Positions 17,099 through 64,000 of a stretch of DNA of 64,000 nucleotides are shown here, in pieces (position 1 is the first letter of the stretch; each line of letters opens with the position of its first letter). Below the pieces are notes generated by a model that was not told where the DNA came from, searched no databases, and was given only the letters and a program-made list of their open reading frames with translations. This stretch comes from Prillingera fragicola. Taxonomy: Eukaryota; Basidiomycota; Tremellomycetes; Trichosporonales; Trichosporonaceae. The stretch spans positions 1 through 64,000 of the forward strand of contig BEDY01000011.1 in the NCBI GenBank assembly GCA_002335605.1. The letters run 5' to 3'. Made by a program: the position numbers and the translations under genes.

Positions 17099-17162
17099 AC
17101 TGCTCAAAGCTGAGCCTCTAGTTCTTTTCCATCAGCAACACTCGACACTCTTCTCGACAACA

Positions 17163-18560
17163 ATGAAGGTCATTGCTCTCCTCTCCCTCCTTCCGGCTCT
17201 GATCAGCGCCGCGTCGGTCGCCCCCCGCGCCGACGACCTTGCGTCTGCCATTGGCGCTTCCGACGACTCGGACACTGCCGGTGACCTCACGATCCCGGAC
17301 ATTACGCTCGGCAAGAAGGTCGACCTCGAGGGCGCCGTCTACGTCGGTAAGGACACGGACGGCACTCAGCTGTACAAGTTCAACAACGGCGACGTTGCCT
17401 CGATCAACGTCGGCACTGGCGACTTTCTCGACGGTGTCACCGTGAACAAGAAGGGCCTCTGCTCGATCTGCATCGACTCGGCCGGCTCGGCCAAGCGTGA
17501 GCTCGGCTCTATCGAGGAGCGGGAGGACCTCGCCAGCGCTCTGGACGCTTCGGACAACTCGGACGTTGCCGGTGTCATCAACCTCGGTGACGACCTCGGT
17601 ATCGGCCAGGAGACTGGCGTTGACGGCGGCAAGTTTGTCGGCCACACCGACGACGACACTCAGCTTTACCAGTTCTCCGACGGCAAGGTCGGTACGCTCA
17701 ACGTTGCGGCCGGCGACATTGTCCCCAACGTGACTGTCGGCGCCGATGGCCTGTGCTCGATCTGTGTCGGCGACTCTGTCTCGAAGCGCGACCTCTCGGA
17801 CAACGCTCCCGAGGAGAAGCGCACTCTGATCTTCCTCGCCATTCTTGCCTCCATCCTTGGCCACCGCCCCATTTCCGACCACTTTGGCGCCGGCCACGGC
17901 CTCCACGTCGGCCACGGCCACGTCGAGGGCTCGTGCGGCCGCGGCGGCTACGTCAACATTCACAACGCCAAGCGCGGTGACCGCTGCGGAATCCGCGGCG
18001 CCAAGTATGCCGGCTGCGACCGCGACGGCAACCAGCTCTGGCACTTTAAGGACGGCCACGTCCGCCCCCTCGTCTTCCGCCGCGGCCCCAACCGCAACGT
18101 CAAGGTCAACTGGTTCACCAAGGTCGCCTACGGCTGCAAAAAGTACACGCGCGGAAAGAACTCGTGGTGGTGGAAGCGCTCGGTCGCCGACGAGGTCGCG
18201 CCCCGCTCCACCATTCTCGCTCCCTCGGCCGACGCCGCTCCTGCAGTTGAGAAGCGTTTCCTCCTCCTCGGCCTCTTCCTCTCGTCCTGGTTCAAGGTCG
18301 GCCACTCGTTCCGCGTAGGCCACGGCAACGCCCCCGGATACTGCGCAAAGGGCGGCTACGTAAACTTTAAAAACGTCCACCTCGGCTCGCGATGCGGTAT
18401 CCGCGGCGGCGTCTATGTCGGCTGCAACCGTGACGGCGTCCAGCTCTGGAAGTTTAACAACGGCCGTATCGGCCCCATCCGCATGCGCAAGGGACACAAG
18501 CGTACCGGCCACGGATACAAGGTCAAGAACAACAAGTGCGACGTTTGCTCGCGCAACTAA
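17163..18560 (+). CDS. Secreted four-unit precursor with Lys-Arg (Kex2-type) processing sites
   Basis: The 465-residue protein starts with a typical signal peptide (MKVIALLSLLPALISAAS). Four related units are separated by KR sites at residues 111-112, 208-209, 219-220, 338-339 and 364-365. All share a core of the form Y/F-V/A-G-x3-D-x2-QL-Y/W-x-F-x2-G-x-V/I (residues about 60-78, 158-176, 282-300, 418-436). Units 1 and 2 are acidic and end in a CSIC or CSIC-V motif. Units 3 and 4 are basic and His/Gly-rich, begin with a hydrophobic stretch just after the KR site, and have more cysteines (GGYVN, CGIRG, GCxRDG). The frame is open upstream to 16488, but the TATA box and signal peptide fix the start at 17163. 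I know no named family for this unit. The layout matches Kex2-processed repeat proteins of fungi; function is unknown. Confidence 0.88.
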   Translation: MKVIALLSLLPALISAASVAPRADDLASAIGASDDSDTAGDLTIPDITLGKKVDLEGAVYVGKDTDGTQLYKFNNGDVASINVGTGDFLDGVTVNKKGLCSICIDSAGSAKRELGSIEEREDLASALDASDNSDVAGVINLGDDLGIGQETGVDGGKFVGHTDDDTQLYQFSDGKVGTLNVAAGDIVPNVTVGADGLCSICVGDSVSKRDLSDNAPEEKRTLIFLAILASILGHRPISDHFGAGHGLHVGHGHVEGSCGRGGYVNIHNAKRGDRCGIRGAKYAGCDRDGNQLWHFKDGHVRPLVFRRGPNRNVKVNWFTKVAYGCKKYTRGKNSWWWKRSVADEVAPRSTILAPSADAAPAVEKRFLLLGLFLSSWFKVGHSFRVGHGNAPGYCAKGGYVNFKNVHLGSRCGIRGGVYVGCNRDGVQLWKFNNGRIGPIRMRKGHKRTGHGYKVKNNKCDVCSRN

Positions 18561-54534: not shown

Positions 54535-56752
54535 CTAACCCCGCCCCGCCGCCTGATGCAACTCCCTCAGCGACCCACCCGTATGCGCCGCCACAGGCCA
54601 CACAGTAGCCATATCATCCAATGCCCCCTGGACGTAGGCGAGATCCCCTCTTGCCTGCGCACGTTCCGCCTCGGGAACCTCTGGCAAACCCGAACTCTGC
54701 AGCACCAGCATCGTGCCCGCTACATAGAGAATACTGCGCTCGTTAGCGGGGAAACGATGAGAACTCACTGTTGCCAGCTCATTGGCGCAGTGGTGATACC
54801 GTGCACGTGGGAGATGTACCGGCTCTGACCGACAATGTCGGCTGTTGCATCGATACACGCCCGCAGCGCTAGGGGGTGGATGTCGGTGCGTTCGCCAAGT
54901 TCGAGCAGGTACGGCCTGAACAGGATAATCACATAGGTCGCGTACATGCCCAGCGTAGTGACTGTACTCGGATGCAGCACGACACCGGGAACAGGCGGCC
55001 ATTGGAGGTGCTGCGGCAGCCGTTCGCGCCACGCGACAAGGCGCTGCCAGAGCACGCGGACGCGTGCGATGCGGTGGCTCATCGGAGCGCGCAGAGTGTG
55101 GTTGCAGTGTAGTGCTTGGAGGCCGTAGTCGCTCATGCCGACGTGATAGTGGAAGATTTCACTGATCTCGCGTTCGACTGGGTCGTGGAGGTCTGAGCGG
55201 ACAAGGGGCAGACGCTGATCGGCTAGATCGCGAAGCGGGAGGGGATCTTGGCCGTTGTAGGTTGCGTACCAGGCCGCTGCACTCGTCAGCGTATGTCAAA
55301 GTACGAGACGCACATAGATTTAGAGCTGTTCCGTAGGCGTCCCGCCGGGCTACATCCAGAGGTGAGTCAACGTGCATGCCCAGTTCGCCGAGTTGATAGT
55401 CGCAGCGCCGGTGTAGTCGCACTGTCGTCAGCCTTCGCCCGCACTAACAACTCACAATCCTGGGCCAAACACAGTGCCATCGAGTAACAGCCGGCCGCAA
55501 TAGGACTAGCGTCAGCGCAACCCACCAACAAAAACTCACTGCCTACTCATGCCGGTGTGATATTTGCTCACAATGATGAGTCCAAAAATCGTACTCAACT
55601 GTGGCTCCTTGACCTCGCTGACCATCATCTCCAGTGCCTTTTCGATAAACACGTCCCCGCGCTCCGCTATCCTCTCTTCTGGGTAGTAGACGCGCAAAAT
55701 ACTGGGATCCTGGACATAGCGCCACCCCACAGCGAGAAGCGCGATGTGCGTCATGGGCGAGTAGTAGATGCCGTTTTCCATTGGGCTTGCTTCCATTTCT
55801 GCTTCAAACTTGTCTTTCCACGCGTTAAACCCAAAAGAGCACAGTCGCGCAAAGCCAAGGTCAAGGAGGAGTTTGTGATGAGCTGGATCTAGTGGGAAGG
55901 GGAGGTATGGCGCAAGGTAGCCTGGCCGGTGGGTCGGGTGGGGGATGAGTGCGTCGAGGGCTTTGAGCCAGTCTGGCGCGAGGTGGGCGGGTGAATAGAA
56001 CGTTGCGGCTGGATAGAGATGAAGGTTTCCAGAGGAAGAAAGCACGAGACGCCCAGTTCCAAACGGCGCCCAGTCGGAAGGTTCGTCGACGGGCGTCTCG
56101 AGGTCGTGGGCTGCGTCGGTGTAGGGTCCCTCGTGCGGGGCGCTGGGCATCAGGGGGTGAGGCTCGGCTGCCGTGCTGGGACCAGCGGAAGCGTTCGAGG
56201 CAGCAGCGGTGCTGGCGGCCTTGGCTGCGTCGAGGGCTGCGTTAAGATCATGCTGGAGGGACTCTACACGGTCTTGCAGCATTTTGATCCTGTCCTTTGC
56301 CGTGCGGTCGCTGCGGCGTGAGCTTGCGAGCATTCGTAACACTCACGTCAATCGCCCGTCGGCTACGGTACTGTAGACACACTCCCGCCCAAGCCGCTGA
56401 CACAGCGAGCACTTAGGATGCTCCCCTACCTCCTCAGCGCCATTCGTCACAGCGGTGACTCACCAGAACACTTGCTCTTCCTCACACGACACTGCTCGCA
56501 AGCCCGCGCGACATTCCGCCGCTGACCACGCATACGCACCGGTCCGCCCCCGGAAGCGCGGCGCTCGCCATCAAACGTCGTGTCGGGGCTCTCACCTGCG
56601 TCCAAATCGTCATCCCGCTCCATCGCCTCGCCTTCTTCGCGCTCACGCCCGGCGTCGCGCCCCGCGCCGGGCGACACGCTGCTGGCGCTGGGCCCCACCG
56701 AGCTGTCGTGGAGGCTGCCCCTAGCGGGGCTTGCGTTGCCGGCCGGATACAT
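54535..56752 (-). CDS. Zn2Cys6 transcription factor with fungal-specific regulatory domain
   Basis: Exons 56464-56752, 56347-56425, 55540-56310, 55456-55505, 55314-55421, 54769-55276 and 54535-54733 join to 667 residues; all six introns are 34-38 nt. The binuclear cluster, split by intron 1, is C-x2-C-x6-C-x6-C-x2-C-x6-C (CEQCRVRKSKC, then KCSLCQRLGREC). A linker with a short coiled coil (DRIKMLQDRVESLQHDL) follows, as in Gal4-like dimers. The rest resembles the fungal-specific middle homology region, including GWRYVQDPSIL, IFGLIIVSKYHTG, YCGRLLL-region Ala/Cys-rich helices and WRERLPQHLQWPP. The start is the ATG at 56752 (MYPAGNASP); earlier in-frame ATGs exist but lie in leader-like sequence. 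Target genes are unknown. Confidence 0.9.
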
Positions 56753-57629
56753 GGGGTATAGTCGGCGTGTGGCCTTGCCGGGGACTGGTGGCGTGGAGTT
56801 GTTGCAACGACAAAGAGACCCATGAGGGGCTTCTGTGCGGAAAAGAACGATTGGGGTGACCAGAAATAGCGGGGGCCCGGAAGTATGCTCCGGATATGGG
56901 TCAGGGCTGCCCCGTGGAGTGGAGGAGAGTGGGGGGAGTGGGCCAACGAGCAGCGAGTCATTGGTCGCGACAAGCAGAGTATGGATTGATATGCACCAAC
57001 AAGAATGGTGCAACGTGTATCGGCCAGTGACCAGTAAGGTGTTACGGTTTGCTCTCTGCTCCTTGCTCGTCTGGTCGACGTGCGCCGTGCACCATGTCCG
57101 CAGCACGGCACCGGTAGTGTTATCCGAGAGCGCCACCCAACCAACCAATACTCCACCTGGCATCAACCATTCACGCCTCATTCTCTTTTCCTGCTCTACC
57201 GACTGAGCTCCCGCCCGTCACAGTGGACATTGGGATGTCAAGACCTTCTTCTGTCTGAGATCTGAGAGTGGCGATAGCTTGCCTTACCCACCAGCCAAGC
57301 GTTGGAGTGCTGTCCAGGCCGAGTCCGCTCGGTTGTGGTCGCACGGAGCCCTTCACCACGGACTAGTCGGCGGGCACAGCCTGCATCTCACAGCCTCAAC
57401 TTTCGTGTTTCTGAGAATACAGAAGGTTCTCTCCGTCCATGCATAAGGTGTACAGGAGTCGAACCGCGTCGCGACCCTCTCACTCTGCAGTGCCAAGCCA
57501 GGAACGACTGGTGGATCGTTTCCGTCGTCGGCAGCGCACCAGTATCCAACAGCCCACACCTTCATCTCTGCCCATCTCCCAGACCATCATGTTGACGACA
57601 CCCACTCTCTCATCTACAACCACGACACG
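56753..57629. other. Divergent promoter region with tRNA-like A box
   Basis: Between the Zn2Cys6 gene (-) and the first LURP-one-related gene (+). On the - strand 57191-57208 carries a tRNA-type A box (gagctcagtcggtagagc). A degenerate B-box-like ggttgatgcc lies at 57162-57171, but no cloverleaf can be completed. Nothing else recognised. Confidence 0.45.
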
Positions 57630-59995: not shown

Positions 59996-60081
59996 AAGCT
60001 GTATCAATCAGCCTGTAGTTGGATGTATCGTTGCAATTCGTTTACATCGCTCAACTCTCGCACTCGCGCCTGGCATGTGCA

Positions 60082-60219
60082 TCAATCCTTGTAGACCTTG
60101 CAGCAGTAGTAGCACATCCACAGCCCGCGGTAGCGTACTGGCAGACATAGGCGGTTACGATTTAGGCCCGTCGCCTTGCCTCCGGAGCAGGTGCGGTTGT
60201 AGTACGGTAGTTGGGTCAT
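60082..60219 (-). CDS. Small cysteine-rich WxCxYC-family protein, minus-strand member
   Basis: An intronless 45-residue frame (start MTQLPYYNRTCSGG, ending CYYCCKVYKD). It shows the same pattern as the four + strand members that follow: C-S-G-x3-T-G-x-N, a single Cys followed by Leu, then W-x-C-x2-C. Spacing is almost that of the member at 61892 (CSGGKATGLN against CLGSPTGLN). The longer frame upstream to 60462 is not convincing coding sequence. Four cysteines in two pairs suggest a single zinc site. No signal peptide is seen. Function unknown. Confidence 0.55.
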   Translation of the reverse strand: MTQLPYYNRTCSGGKATGLNRNRLCLPVRYRGLWMCYYCCKVYKD

Positions 60220-61271
60220 TGTAGAGCGGAGGTGGGCTGTCAAGATACGCAAGGTGTCCGTACTGTAGTCGGCGATCAATGAGTGGCGAGCAGGGTGTTG
60301 GCTGGTGGTGTGAGTGGTGAAGCAGAACATCGTGCAGGAAGGAAGCATTGAGCCTACATCATTTATGCTGATGCGGAACACAGTTGTCAACGTAAGCACC
60401 AGTGCTTTACCGCTGCAAACATGAGGCAGAGTAAACACACTGCCCACAAAAGAGAAGTGCAATCAAAACAATGGCGTCGGGCCTCGGCTTGTGCTTGTGC
60501 TTGAAGCCACTGACGACATTGAGCACTACTGTGCTTCTTGGAAAGAGAGATGATTACAGTGAAGCACGTGCTTTGCAAGCCATAGTGATGTTGTGCATAA
60601 ACACTTAAATGTTAGCTGTGAGGAGTGGAAGACGGATGCATGGTGGTGTTTGAGCGGTGTACGGATGCACTTGGTTGAGCCATGACGAGAAGGTGGCGGC
60701 GAGTAGCAACATTGTGATGGCGAGCAGAGACCACGTGATGCTTGCAACCAGCTACCATACCACATCGTTGTGCCGTCAAGATTCCAAACGAGTTCAAGGC
60801 CATTCTTTTGGCGTGAAGGGCCACAGATTGAGGACCATGTCCATGACCTCGCTGAATCGCTGTCGTCCACCAGATTGCCCGTCACACACGGCGGGAGGCC
60901 TTCGCACCAAATGTGATGTGGCGGGACATGTGGCGGCTGGGAACTGAAGGTGCCGAGCCTGGCTGTGTCCGACGACGACGGGTGATATCGTTCTTTTGCC
61001 ACTTTGAGTTCCGGCCGTCTCGTCCTTGTGTGCTCGGTGCTGCATGGGTACTCGATTCGCATCTTGTGAGCGTGCCCAGTTTAGTCTCCTGTCACCTCGC
61101 AACCCATGGACGTCGCCACCTCCTCCGCACTTCTTAACGCTGTCAGAATTTCCACCTCAGATCCATCCTTATATCAACCATACCCGCCGTACCCATCTAC
61201 TCACACCTCTACCACCCCCTCGCCGCTTGCGTAGCAAATCCAAACCTCGCCCCAAAACTGCACACTGCCAA
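60220..61271. other. Intergenic between divergent small cysteine-rich genes
   Basis: About 1 kb. A TATA-like ttatatc sits near 61165, about 100 bp before the ATG at 61272. A minus-strand frame at 60387-60578 ends with Cys/Trp-rich sequence (CTSLLWAVCLLC) that might be a decayed relative of the cluster, but this is too weak to call. Confidence 0.4.
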
Positions 61272-61459
61272 ATGTCAACCCCAGGTTACTCCGCCTCAGG
61301 ATACCCAGCACAGCGGATCTGCATAGGCGCACCTGACGGAAGTAACCGTGGCCGTCAGTCTTCCTGTTGAGCAACGCTGACGGCGCAGAGCCCTGCCTAT
61401 GGGTGCTCATTTGGCCGGATAAGTGGTACTGCTGGTTTTGCAGCTACTGGGTGACCTAG
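61272..61459 (+). CDS. Small cysteine-rich WxCxYC-family protein 1, possibly decaying
   Basis: Exons 61272-61347 and 61389-61459 give 48 residues. Exon 1 encodes RICIGAPDGSN and exon 2 encodes PCLWVLIWPDKWYCWFCSYW. This matches the cluster pattern C-x-G, x-C-L/V, aromatic-C-x-F/Y-C. The donor is poor (gtggcc, or gccgtc three bases on), although the acceptor (acgctgacggcgcag) is good and the splice phase is the same as in the other members. Without splicing the frame ends at 61370. The 3' end of exon 2, stop codon included, is part of a 36-bp tandem duplication. Either a weakly spliced gene or an early pseudogene. Confidence 0.5.
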
Positions 61460-61510
61460 ACGTTCAGGAGATTGTGCAGCTACTGGGTGACCTAGACGTT
61501 CAGGAGATTG
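61440..61510 (+). repeat. 36-bp tandem duplication over the 3' end of cysteine-rich gene 1
   Basis: Copies 61440-61475 and 61476-61510 are identical apart from the final truncated base. The unit (gcagctactgggtgacctag, then cgttcaggagattgt) includes the last five codons and the stop of the gene. Confidence 0.95.
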
Positions 61511-61891
61511 GTCGCCGCGTTGGGGTTGGGTGTTCAGGAATTGCTCGTCGTTTGTCGGACTCGGTGTGTGGTGGCTGATGCAACTTTCGAAAATCACGTT
61601 GTGGTTGTGTGTTCTTTGTCGCACCTTGTCAATAACATTTTAGGGCTTGATGGTGGCTTGTGGGCTTGGAGCATTGATGAGAAGCAGGTAGTCAGCTTGG
61701 AACAGAGTGTCGGCCTGTCCTCTCATCAGGTGGACCATGGCATTGATGGGTCGCACCTGCTGCAGTCGACATCAAATATCTCAGACTTTCTCGTTTCTGT
61801 GAGCATTCAATTCTCTCTCAACTGACATTTAGCACGTCCTCTCTGATTTTTTACTCTCAAACAGCTCTGGAACCCATATAAATCAGCAAGC
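61460..61891. other. Intergenic within the cysteine-rich cluster
   Basis: Contains tgtgtggtggctgatgca at about 61565-61582, which recurs at about 62177-62194 after gene 2, followed in both places by similar sequence ending tttcttcgtcgcacc or ctttgtcgcacc. The gene and its 3' flank were therefore duplicated together. Confidence 0.7.
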
Positions 61892-62136
61892 ATGTCCCCT
61901 TCAACCGCAGGAACACCCGTGAACAGCGGATGGGGCGGGTGGCCAAACTATCGTCTCTGCCTCGGTTCACCCACCGGTCTCAACAATGGCGGTGAGTCCT
62001 TATCTGCCCTCTCCCGTTTGGCAACTGTATCCTGGCTGACGGCACAGATCACTGCGTGTGGCTGTTTGGAGCAAACCACAGGGGTTGGTTTTGCAAGTAC
62101 TGTGGCTGCAACGCCAAGCCCTTCCCAGCATGGTGA
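61892..62136 (+). CDS. Small cysteine-rich WxCxYC-family protein 2
   Basis: Exons 61892-61991 and 62048-62136 join to 62 residues with a consensus 56-nt intron (gtgagt, ctgac, gcacag) in phase 1. The N terminus is Ser/Gly/Trp-rich (GWGGWPNY). The conserved part is RLCLGSPTGLN, then HCVWLF, then RGWFCKYCGCN. This is the best preserved member. No signal peptide or TM segment is seen, so the product is probably intracellular. The Cys spacing would suit a one-zinc ribbon. tataaat lies only about 10 bp upstream of the ATG, too close to be its TATA box. Confidence 0.65.
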
Positions 62137-62322
62137 CATGCCTGTTGTGTCTTTTGGAGCTCTTGTTGTCACCAATGTGTGGTGGCTGATGCATCGTTAC
62201 AATTCACTTCTTGTTGGTGCGTTTCTTCGTCGCACCCTCCTACATACATACTGGTATTATTGGGTGAATTTTCGGGAGTTTTTCGGAGCTTTTCAATCAC
62301 ATTAACACGAACATTACTCACG

Positions 62323-62531
62323 ATGCCGAGCCCATCACCCCCACCACTCTGCTCAGGTTGCAGGCTCACTGGCAAAAACTACAACAGTGAGCTCCGCGGT
62401 GCGTCGAGGAGTGCACTATTGTCTGACGCCCAGAACCTTGCGTTGCTCTTTTTCAAGTAGTTGGCCTCTTGCCATTTTACGGCTGTCGCTACTGTGGCGC
62501 AATGATGACTGGGTGTGATCTGCAAATGTGA
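62323..62531 (+). CDS. Small cysteine-rich WxCxYC-family protein 3
   Basis: Exons 62323-62386 and 62434-62531 join to 53 residues; the intron is 47 nt (gtgagc, ctgac, gcccag), phase 1, at the same site as in its neighbours. Exon 1 has LCSGCRLTGKNYN and exon 2 KPCVALF, then FYGCRYCGAMMTGC. Read without splicing, exon 1 runs into an unrelated 46-residue frame, so the homology of exon 2 supports the intron. Confidence 0.6.
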
Positions 62532-62749
62532 TGAAAGGTCCCGGGCAAGTCCTGGGGTGCGTTGTTGGCAGAAGTGTTGATGGATGGAAGGCTCGTTGAA
62601 GACTGATGGAGAATGAGTTTGGGTGCACGCTCTCATTGATTTCACCTTCTCCTCGAGAAACAGGATTACACGTGTTATGACCATCACTAAGTTCGTTGGA
62701 AAGCTCTTATAAGAATCCTCATAATATCACTCGTACCCTCCAAGAACAA

Positions 62750-63214
62750 ATGTCGCAGAACCAATCCAACAGAGCCATTCCGTACCAGGGGCCGGGAGGC
62801 CCTCGATATCCGTCTCAGCAGGCGTCGCAGAACCCGTCACTGAACTCCGGCCAGAGCTTCCCACAGGACATCCCACAAAACTTCGTCCAGAATCTCCCAC
62901 AGCAGATGTTCCTTCCCCCGCCCCCCGCCGACACACTCCTCCGCCCCCTGACCCATTGCCCGGGCGACATACACAGGATGAATATGGGTGGTGAGCCCCT
63001 TCCTTCCCGGAAGTCCAAAGAGCAATCACTGACAAGTGGCACAGGAGTTTGCCTCGCCGCGGCTGTTGGGACCGCGACCCAGTGGGGGATTAAATGCGCT
63101 TACTGTCAAAGGGATATTATGCGGCCGAGTGGAGTCATGCCTCGTGTCACTCCCAAGCTCTTCACTACCAAGAACCCTCCTACCAAGGGCCTGAAGAGAG
63201 AGGCGAAGAAGTAG
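62750..63214 (+). CDS. Small cysteine-rich WxCxYC-family protein 4, extended
   Basis: Exons 62750-62990 and 63045-63214 join to 136 residues; the 54-nt intron (gtgagc, ctgac, gcacag) is phase 1 and frame-preserving. The N-terminal 65 residues are Gln/Asn/Pro-rich (PQDIPQNFVQNLPQQ), absent in the other members. The conserved part is HCPGDIHRMNMG, VCLAAA, then WGIKCAYCQRDI. A basic C-terminal tail follows (TKGLKREAKK). It is the largest member and might be the ancestral or the most derived form. Confidence 0.65.
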   Translation: MSQNQSNRAIPYQGPGGPRYPSQQASQNPSLNSGQSFPQDIPQNFVQNLPQQMFLPPPPADTLLRPLTHCPGDIHRMNMGGEPLPSRKSKEQSLTSGTGVCLAAAVGTATQWGIKCAYCQRDIMRPSGVMPRVTPKLFTTKNPPTKGLKREAKK

Positions 63215-63609
63215 CTAACGCGGAGGCAAGTCAGTGATTATACCTTCCGGTGATCAGAGAATCTGCCGGATTAAAATCCGTACGCGTCTGTTATCATAAT
63301 CACTGCTGCAGGATAGCACTGTAAGTGATCAGTGATGATATTATGATATGCTGTATAATTACTGCACCGTCCTTGACACAGTCGGCTGGCGTCGTTCAGA
63401 GCAGATACTACAATAAAATAATTTCACGCTGGTGTGTAAACACATGGTCGCCATCCTGCTTCCCCTCCCGATATGATCTCTCCGCTCCCTCAGGCAGCTC
63501 TCTGAAGCTCTGAATTGATAGCTATTGATTTTGCATACATGTTTGAGCTTTGGCTATCCCTGACGCCCACGCGCGCGGAAAACTCCACTCGCCACACCAA
63601 CAACATCCA
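63215..63609. other. Intergenic, AT-richer
   Basis: About 400 bp between the last cysteine-rich gene and the tRNA. No gene recognised. Confidence 0.5.
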
Positions 63610-63698
63610 GGCCACTTAGCTCAGTTGGTTAGAGCGTATGCTTAACACGTGCAAGTGTCTAGCGCATAAGGTCGGCGGTTCGACCCCGCCAGAGGTCA
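63610..63698 (+). tRNA. tRNA-Val (AAC) with 15-nt intron
   Basis: Acceptor strand 63610-63616 pairs with 63691-63697 (one G-U pair and one A-A mismatch). The D arm is GCTC/GAGC at 63619-63635. The anticodon stem TATGC/GCATA flanks loop TTAACA...C with anticodon AAC at 63644-63646. A 15-nt intron (63648-63662) sits in the canonical place after position 37. The T arm is GGCGG-TTCGACC-CCGCC (63674-63690). The discriminator is A. Confidence 0.92.
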
Positions 63699-63703
63699 TT
63701 TCC

Positions 63704-63708
63704 TTTTT
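63704..63708 (+). terminator. RNA polymerase III terminator of tRNA-Val
   Basis: A run of five T residues six bases after the tRNA 3' end. Confidence 0.75.
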
Positions 63709-64000
63709 GCTTGTACGGCACAGAAAAGAGGTATGCATGGCCGGTGGGATGGTGGCGAGGACTGAAAGCTTGATGGTGCGAAGCAGTGTGGGGTAACTGG
63801 AGGTGTGGGGTGGAGGTGCGGAGTGGCGCTCCATTTGGCCCACAGTAAACTCAAGCACGCATTCATGGGTCCGAATCCTTGTACAGCTAGTGTTATGAGA
63901 TCTGAGATCTGCTAGTTAGCACTTCTTGAGGTAGCAGGGACAATTGCTTGGACAGTCTGTTGCTCACATCGGACGTGCGCAGCTACATGTGCATGGCGGA
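63709..64000. other. Window end, nothing recognised
   Basis: No gene or RNA was identified after the tRNA terminator. Confidence 0.5.

Follow-up and report, generated by a model that had tools for sequence, protein, structure and literature searches.

The window analysed here is the first 64 kb (64,000 nucleotides, nt) of contig C11 of the Prillingera fragicola genome, which comprises 20.2 Mb in 17 contigs. Near its end lie five small cysteine-rich genes, g1 to g4 on the plus strand and g5 on the minus strand (Table 1), belonging to a family with members on eight contigs. A first-pass annotation had placed five genes here, and all of them were found again when the models were re-derived from the sequence. 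The annotation had also given g1 to g4 a phase-1 intron at one common position; this was borne out, with plausible donors, acceptors that all end in CAG, and a CTGAC 11-16 nt before the 3' end of each intron. For g3 the gene and its intron stood, with another acceptor: position 62433 is preferred because the C-V motif containing the second cysteine (Cys2) is restored there and lost with the later acceptors.

The five genes share C-x-G, an Asn placed 8 or 9 residues beyond the first cysteine (Cys1), a second cysteine and a C-x2-C. The cysteine pattern is therefore common to all five, as had been claimed, and is richer than first described, including an Asn five residues before Cys2, a frequent Gly and a frequent Pro. 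The family is defined by C-x-G-x(4-6)-N, then Cys2, then C-x2-C, with a phase-1 intron before Cys2. The g1 to g4 genes present all of these elements and g5 all except the intron; the alignment of g5 with a spliced member covers residues 5-37 of 41.

Short motifs are frequent in 64 kb, and chance pattern-matching was the first alternative to be considered. Gene models were scored on motifs, splice signals and an upstream Met. The real window gave five matches scoring 10.0-11.5, whereas in 120 simulated windows based on its trinucleotide composition no score reached 7 (top score 4.8). On the reversed sequence of the DNA used for this control the top score was 5.1, against 9 or more for the family members. 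Chance is thus refuted here, as the first-pass annotation had anticipated, and its remaining probability is practically nil.

Table 1. Coordinates of the window genes (positions in the window) and of the family loci (contig and kb).
Feature	Position	Strand	Description
g5	60082-60219	-	intronless; conceptual product of 45 residues from the nearest ATG; upstream in-frame ATG at 60348 gives 88 residues
g1	61272-61459	+	conceptual product of 50 residues
g1 exon 1	61272-61353	+	carries C-I-G-x3-G-S-N-R-G
g1 intron	61354-61388	+	35 nt, phase 1, GTCAGT..GCGCAG, CTGAC at 61377-61381
g1 exon 2	61389-61459	+	C-L ... W-Y-C-W-F-C, stop TAG
g2	61892-62136	+	conceptual product of 62 residues
g2 exon 1	61892-61991	+
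g2 intron	61992-62047	+	56 nt, phase 1, GTGAGT..GCACAG, CTGAC at 62036-62040
g2 exon 2	62048-62136	+	C-V ... W-F-C-K-Y-C-G
g3	62323-62531	+	conceptual product of 53 residues
g3 exon 1	62323-62386	+
g3 intron	62387-62433	+	47 nt, phase 1, GTGAGC..GCCCAG, CTGAC at 62423-62427
g3 exon 2	62434-62531	+	C-V-A-L ... C-R-Y-C-G
g4	62750-63214	+	conceptual product of 136 residues
g4 exon 1	62750-62990	+	Q/N/P-rich N-terminal tail, then C-P-G-D
g4 intron	62991-63044	+	54 nt, phase 1, GTGAGC..GCACAG, CTGAC at 63029-63033
g4 exon 2	63045-63214	+	C-L ... C-A-Y-C and a basic C-terminal tail of 35 residues
Eight members	C11:60.1-64.9 kb		five in the window, three at 64.1-64.9 kb
Pair	C11:85.7-86.3 kb
Six members	C4:1832.6-1836.3 kb	+
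Three members	C4:1815.3-1817.5 kb	-
Other pairs			one on C1, three on C3
Single members			seven loci

A dispersed family of two-exon genes

The family comprises 34 distinct members scoring 9 (the threshold) or more, in 15 loci (members up to 10 kb apart being joined) on contigs C1, C2, C3, C4, C5, C7, C11 and C12. This set strongly supports the proposal, made from the window, of an unrecognised family whose members have an intron position and a cysteine pattern in common. The cluster in the window proved larger than the five genes reported, as it continues beyond the window to a total of eight. Tandem clusters do exist, as had been stated; members also occur singly or in pairs, and on both strands. 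The two C4 clusters (within C4:1815137-1842000) are about 15 kb apart, with no members between them or in another 19 kb surrounding them on C4, and the gene finder identified none in C11:1-60 kb, C11:74-84 kb or C11:94-104 kb. No more than about 120 kb separates the larger clusters (C11:60-86 kb, C4:1815-1836 kb and C3:110 kb) from a contig end. Given 15 loci and a guided sampling, a subtelomeric preference is no more than hinted at.

The DNA examined for members amounts to 296,753 non-redundant bases (about 297 kb, or 1.5% of the genome) and its choice was guided by motifs, the surroundings of every place matched by the two patterns below being included. A genome search with W-x-C-x-[FY]-C gave 79 places against 65 in the control, eight of them members, and one with C-x-G-D-x2-G-x-N gave 26 against 9, sixteen of them members. 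Three members are common to both searches; the thirteen that fit neither pattern came from the vicinity of pattern places or from contiguous C11 DNA. The Chapman estimate from the two patterns (8, 16 and 3 shared) is about 37 members, probably a low figure. Because so little of the genome was sampled, and by motif, 34 is a lower bound.

The finder required C.G, N, C and C..C, fixed the intron phase at 1, allowed 0-3 residues between the split codon and Cys2, and left the distance from N to Cys2 free. The first scan was made without the Asn requirement; from it 14 members were picked, two low-complexity unspliced matches and alternative splice forms being excluded. In the set of 34 the overlapping duplicate C4:1836283/6 was merged. 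Profile A1 was built from the 14 members and profile A2 from the 34. The invariance of the Asn, the cysteines and the C-x-G Gly in A2 is partly built in by what the finder demands; the shared Asn is not an artefact, because all 14 members picked from the Asn-blind scan have it.

The consensus is C-x-G-[D]-x2-3-G-x-N-[RK]-x3-C-[VL]-[P]-x(4-13)-C-x-[YFW]-C, located near the C-terminus. In the core, taken from Cys1 to Cys4, the Cys1-Cys2 gap is 12 in 28 of the 34 members (11-13 overall), the Cys2-Cys3 gap varies from 6 to 15, and the two residues between Cys3 and Cys4 are given by construction. The Asn stands exactly five residues before Cys2 in every member. Less regular elements are an aromatic residue before the last Cys (32/34), R or K after the Asn (21/34), P at Cys2+2 (19/34) and G after Cys4 (13/34). 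The D after C-x-G (21/34) and the G two before the Asn (30/34) have inflated frequencies because both are part of a search pattern that 16 members match; of the 18 remaining members, 5 have the D and 14 the G.

The rest of the protein is short. The C-terminal tail has 4-15 residues in 29 members, and the N-terminal part has 1-68 residues from the nearest ATG, present in 33; the exception is C7:620875, without an in-frame upstream ATG. Protein length from the nearest ATG is 34-106 residues, and 38-60 in 24 members (the ATG-less one being counted from Cys1). Several domains start 1-3 residues after the Met, and in a few genes the upstream frame is longer, in some with a high content of Ser, Thr, Pro or Gln.

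A single intron, 33-110 nt long (median 43), is present in 32 members. In all 32 it precedes Cys2 by exactly the split codon plus one residue, where the finder would have accepted 0-3. The branch-site motif CTRAY was identified 8-45 nt upstream of the acceptor in 27 introns, whereas 1000 shufflings of the inner bases gave 3.1 on average and never more than 9. The real count is slightly favoured, since the score prefers splice choices with this motif. The five introns lacking CTRAY belong to four C3 genes and to C11:85706. An in-frame stop lies within 20 of the 32 introns, and intron lengths are evenly spread over the three residue classes. The intronless members are g5 and C4:1832586, and both align with spliced members through the junction. 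In single-query genome searches with four spliced members, three matched an intronless member (the first at E 5e-4, the second at E 7.5e-5 and 0.008, the third at E 2.1e-5) and the fourth matched itself alone. The matches at E 5e-4 and 0.008 are to g5.

Constraint, divergence and surroundings

At the four Cys positions of the 34 members the TGC:TGT counts are 26:8, 25:9, 24:10 and 25:9, and at the Asn the AAC:AAT count is 25:9. Both codons are used, at about 3:1: the codon drifts and the residue stays. This speaks for selection at the protein level and is to be taken with caution, as the finder itself selects for those residues. This bears on the possibility that the genes are decayed or untranslated relics of an old family. 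The missing ATG of C7:620875 and the five introns without a branch site would fit such relics, as would the fact that all members are known here from their DNA. Against it stand, across the 34 members, the open frames, the splice signals, the conserved spacing and the synonymous drift of the Cys codons, and decay is considered very unlikely.

Outside the scaffold most positions are variable, with a median pairwise core identity of 0.39. With values of 0.399 for cluster-mates and 0.401 for members elsewhere (permutation p 0.55), sharing a cluster brings no greater likeness, so the clusters are not recent amplifications. Local amplification as the origin of the clusters was rejected on this ground, the one hint of it being in the 3' flanks of g1 and g2, where 61565-61625 and 62176-62236 are 79% alike over 63 bp and one local duplication is therefore likely. 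A perfect 36-bp direct tandem duplication at 61439-61510 overlaps the end of g1; copy 1 forms its last codons and stop and copy 2 lies in the 3' flank.

A fixed scaffold with the remainder free, clusters of 2-8 genes and cluster-mates as divergent as distant members are also what would be found in genes of genetic conflict, that is, diversified small intracellular conflict or recognition proteins (drive, incompatibility or antiparasite) on a four-Cys scaffold. This alternative is nevertheless unlikely. The divergence looks old, with no recent bursts seen except in the g1/g2 flank, and the flank k-mers of the 34 members revealed no clear shared promoter, terminal or mobile-element motif. A few of these k-mers slightly exceed the shuffles: downstream GGTGGC in 15 members against a maximum of 13, and TACTGCAC in 6 against 5. 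A shared TATA box was rejected, as one of the 34 members has TATAWA at up to 200 nt from the nearest ATG, against a shuffled mean of 1.9. The neighbours also speak against conflict genes: four of the 10 C11 open reading frames (ORFs) scanned match Pfam, namely an acetyltransferase, an AMP-binding enzyme, a hydrolase-like and a Zn(2)-Cys(6)-like family, the last two under the cut-off.

Other features were observed in the window. The frame at 56450-57217 on the minus strand matches the fungal Zn(2)-Cys(6) cluster just under the cut-off (E 0.0006) and is a possible transcription factor. The gene at about 59.0-59.6 kb, at first read as LURP-one-like, had no Pfam match and that assignment was dropped. 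A tRNA-Leu with anticodon TAA (63610-63698, ARAGORN) adjoins the cluster. The G+C content is 52.7% in 60001-64000 and about 57-64% in the other 4-kb segments. A long frame at about 17100-18560 contains repeated G-L-C-S-I-C and G-G-Y-V-N ... C-G-I-R-G units and is apparently a secreted repeat protein that starts with MKVIALLSLLPALISA.

A candidate fold and role for the proteins

The favoured reading, with a probability slightly better than even, is that the genes form a large and old family of intracellular microproteins, each probably built on a zinc-stabilised ribbon-like domain with variable binding surfaces. Exon 1 would supply Cys1 in the turn C-x-G-[D]-x2-G-x-N, and exon 2 would contribute Cys2, then a variable-length hairpin and finally the C-x-[YFW]-C knuckle. 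The four reduced cysteines would bind one zinc ion and so staple a minimal ribbon-like domain of 28 residues. The Gly and the Asn would shape the turn after Cys1, and this G-x-N turn and the aromatic knuckle would stabilise the domain. The varying hairpin and loops, together with the N- and C-terminal tails, may contact a different protein or nucleic-acid partner in each paralogue. The proteins would be cytosolic or nuclear. In the structure model a beta-hairpin (27-30/33-36) runs into the C-x2-C knuckle, with a mean pLDDT (predicted local distance difference test) of 74 and a pTM (predicted template modelling score) of 0.48.

A secreted location is an alternative, since secreted cysteine-rich families are typically small, with an even number of Cys, clustered and highly divergent. 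Effectors or antimicrobials held by disulfide bonds would share all these traits, and C7:454695 does have a hydrophobic stretch before Cys1. In 31 of the 34 members, however, no strongly hydrophobic stretch was identified in the first 35 residues (maximum 10-residue Kyte-Doolittle mean below 2.2, a hydropathy measure applied to the nearest-ATG forms); in two of the three exceptions the stretch falls in the core or the tail. Domains beginning 1-3 residues after the Met also count against secretion, and C-x2-C with an aromatic residue inside is a metal-knuckle pattern. The disulfide reading is disfavoured because most members have no apparent signal peptide, and it is held to be improbable.

Several observations weigh against an intracellular zinc-stabilised family. 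None of the four single-protein genome queries matched another intron-bearing member. Such pairwise matches are not to be expected between short split genes with about 40% core identity, and the relatedness of the intron-bearing members is carried by the pattern and the intron rather than by pairwise E-values. The minimal zinc ribbon proposed by the first-pass annotation is plausible; the model with its hairpin and knuckle has moderate confidence and no significant match among PDB structures. A classical zinc ribbon contains a pair of C-x2-C (or C-x2-H) knuckles, and in the 34 cores the first two Cys are mostly 12 apart and the one shared C-x2-C stands at the end. The hydrophobic N-terminal part of C7:454695 is a further point, as is the nature of the material, which is DNA sequence throughout. 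Finally, no relative from another species was found in a set of 5.8 billion proteins, from which short spliced genes are often missing.

In this protein set the searches with 14 and with 34 members gave 7 and 10 word-sharing candidates, none of them scoring at E 1 and E 10 respectively. The set does cover Trichosporonales, because the CWH43-like ORF of the window, used as a control, was 65-68% identical to Cutaneotrichosporon and Vanrija humicola proteins (among its best 120 matches). The negative result concerns the proteins listed there, and the absence of the genes from those genomes does not follow from it.

A bolder proposal goes beyond the zinc-stabilised family and is unlikely: a genome-wide repertoire of two-exon recognition modules with a new fold, acting as distinct intracellular binders in Trichosporonales yeasts. 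In such a repertoire a metal-stapled scaffold of about 28 residues would be kept constant by Cys, Gly and Asn, the other positions being mostly free, and dozens of paralogues would have been separate long enough for cluster neighbours to resemble each other no more than they do members on other contigs.

At least 34 genes of one family seem to escape both the general profile libraries and a protein set that includes Trichosporonales. If they are expressed, the annotation of this yeast group misses a whole gene class. The two-exon model is directly applicable to other genomes, and the fixed scaffold with free loops offers a compact test case for the minimal size of a zinc fold and for the diversification of microproteins.

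Comparison with known families

None of the library families tested accommodates these proteins; as a kind, small zinc-domain families are already known. In Pfam, eight families were matched at E <=1, each by one of the 34 members (best C1_1, E 0.0063). In NCBIfam, with 14 members scanned, the best match had E 0.063. None of these was convincing, and no member matched PADLOC at E 0.1. Profile A1 searched against PDB sequences gave 2kmk_A (Gfi-1) as best match (E 0.0044), followed by other zinc proteins above 0.04; with A2 the best E was 0.19 and Gfi-1 had 0.7. Among the weak matches, zf-CHCC, C1, RING, C2H2 (Gfi-1) and ribosomal zinc ribbons were considered and none was accepted.

The zinc ribbons and knuckles (eL43/L37a, the N-terminus of TFIIB, and ZifS, a small zinc-finger protein) resemble the family in the hairpin, modelled in the latter, that runs into a C-x2-C with an aromatic residue inside, and account for several weak profile and Foldseek matches. 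The family differs from them in having one C-x2-C knuckle, an invariant N-x4-C and no significant fold match. Gfi-1 aligns with profile A1 over 16 residues around the knuckle; the match is confined to this C-x2-C, and the family does not present the C2H2 pattern. In the RNF125 RING half-site (8gbq, 5dka) the stretch C ... W-x-C-x2-C aligns to exon 2 of the family, with E 0.25-0.72. Such a match covers half of a cross-braced RING, whereas the family has no second zinc site.

A similar plan is that of zf-CHCC (PF10276, complex I NDUFS6), with motif CX8-9HX14-15CX2C as given in PMC11180951. Both have a lone N-terminal Cys, a lone second ligand and then C-x2-C, in a similar total length. The family could be a very remote branch of a known zinc domain such as this one. 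The plan C-x(n)-[ligand]-x(m)-C-x2-C would be kept, with Asn in place of the His ligand and a new Cys, five residues later, as fourth ligand. The single match to cover most of profile A2 (12-46 of 49) is that to the zf-CHCC chain 8qby_R, at a non-significant E of 0.75. The ligand His is absent, PF10276 was not matched at E <=1 by any of the 34 members, and an exon elsewhere in the genome does match PF10276, over the cut-off. A zf-CHCC origin is accordingly judged improbable, and a separate zinc-stabilised family remains the preferred reading.

Such a family was not met among the literature entries listed or in a term search of PMC10568926, a small search that is no proof of its absence from print. 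A further likeness is found with the plant cysteine-rich peptide families, which according to the SPADA paper (PMC3924332) have one or two exons and are missed by gene callers. Like them, the present genes are tiny, divergent, composed of one or two exons and defined by their Cys pattern. The plant peptides are largely secreted, whereas most members of this family have no apparent signal peptide and their Cys pattern suggests a metal.

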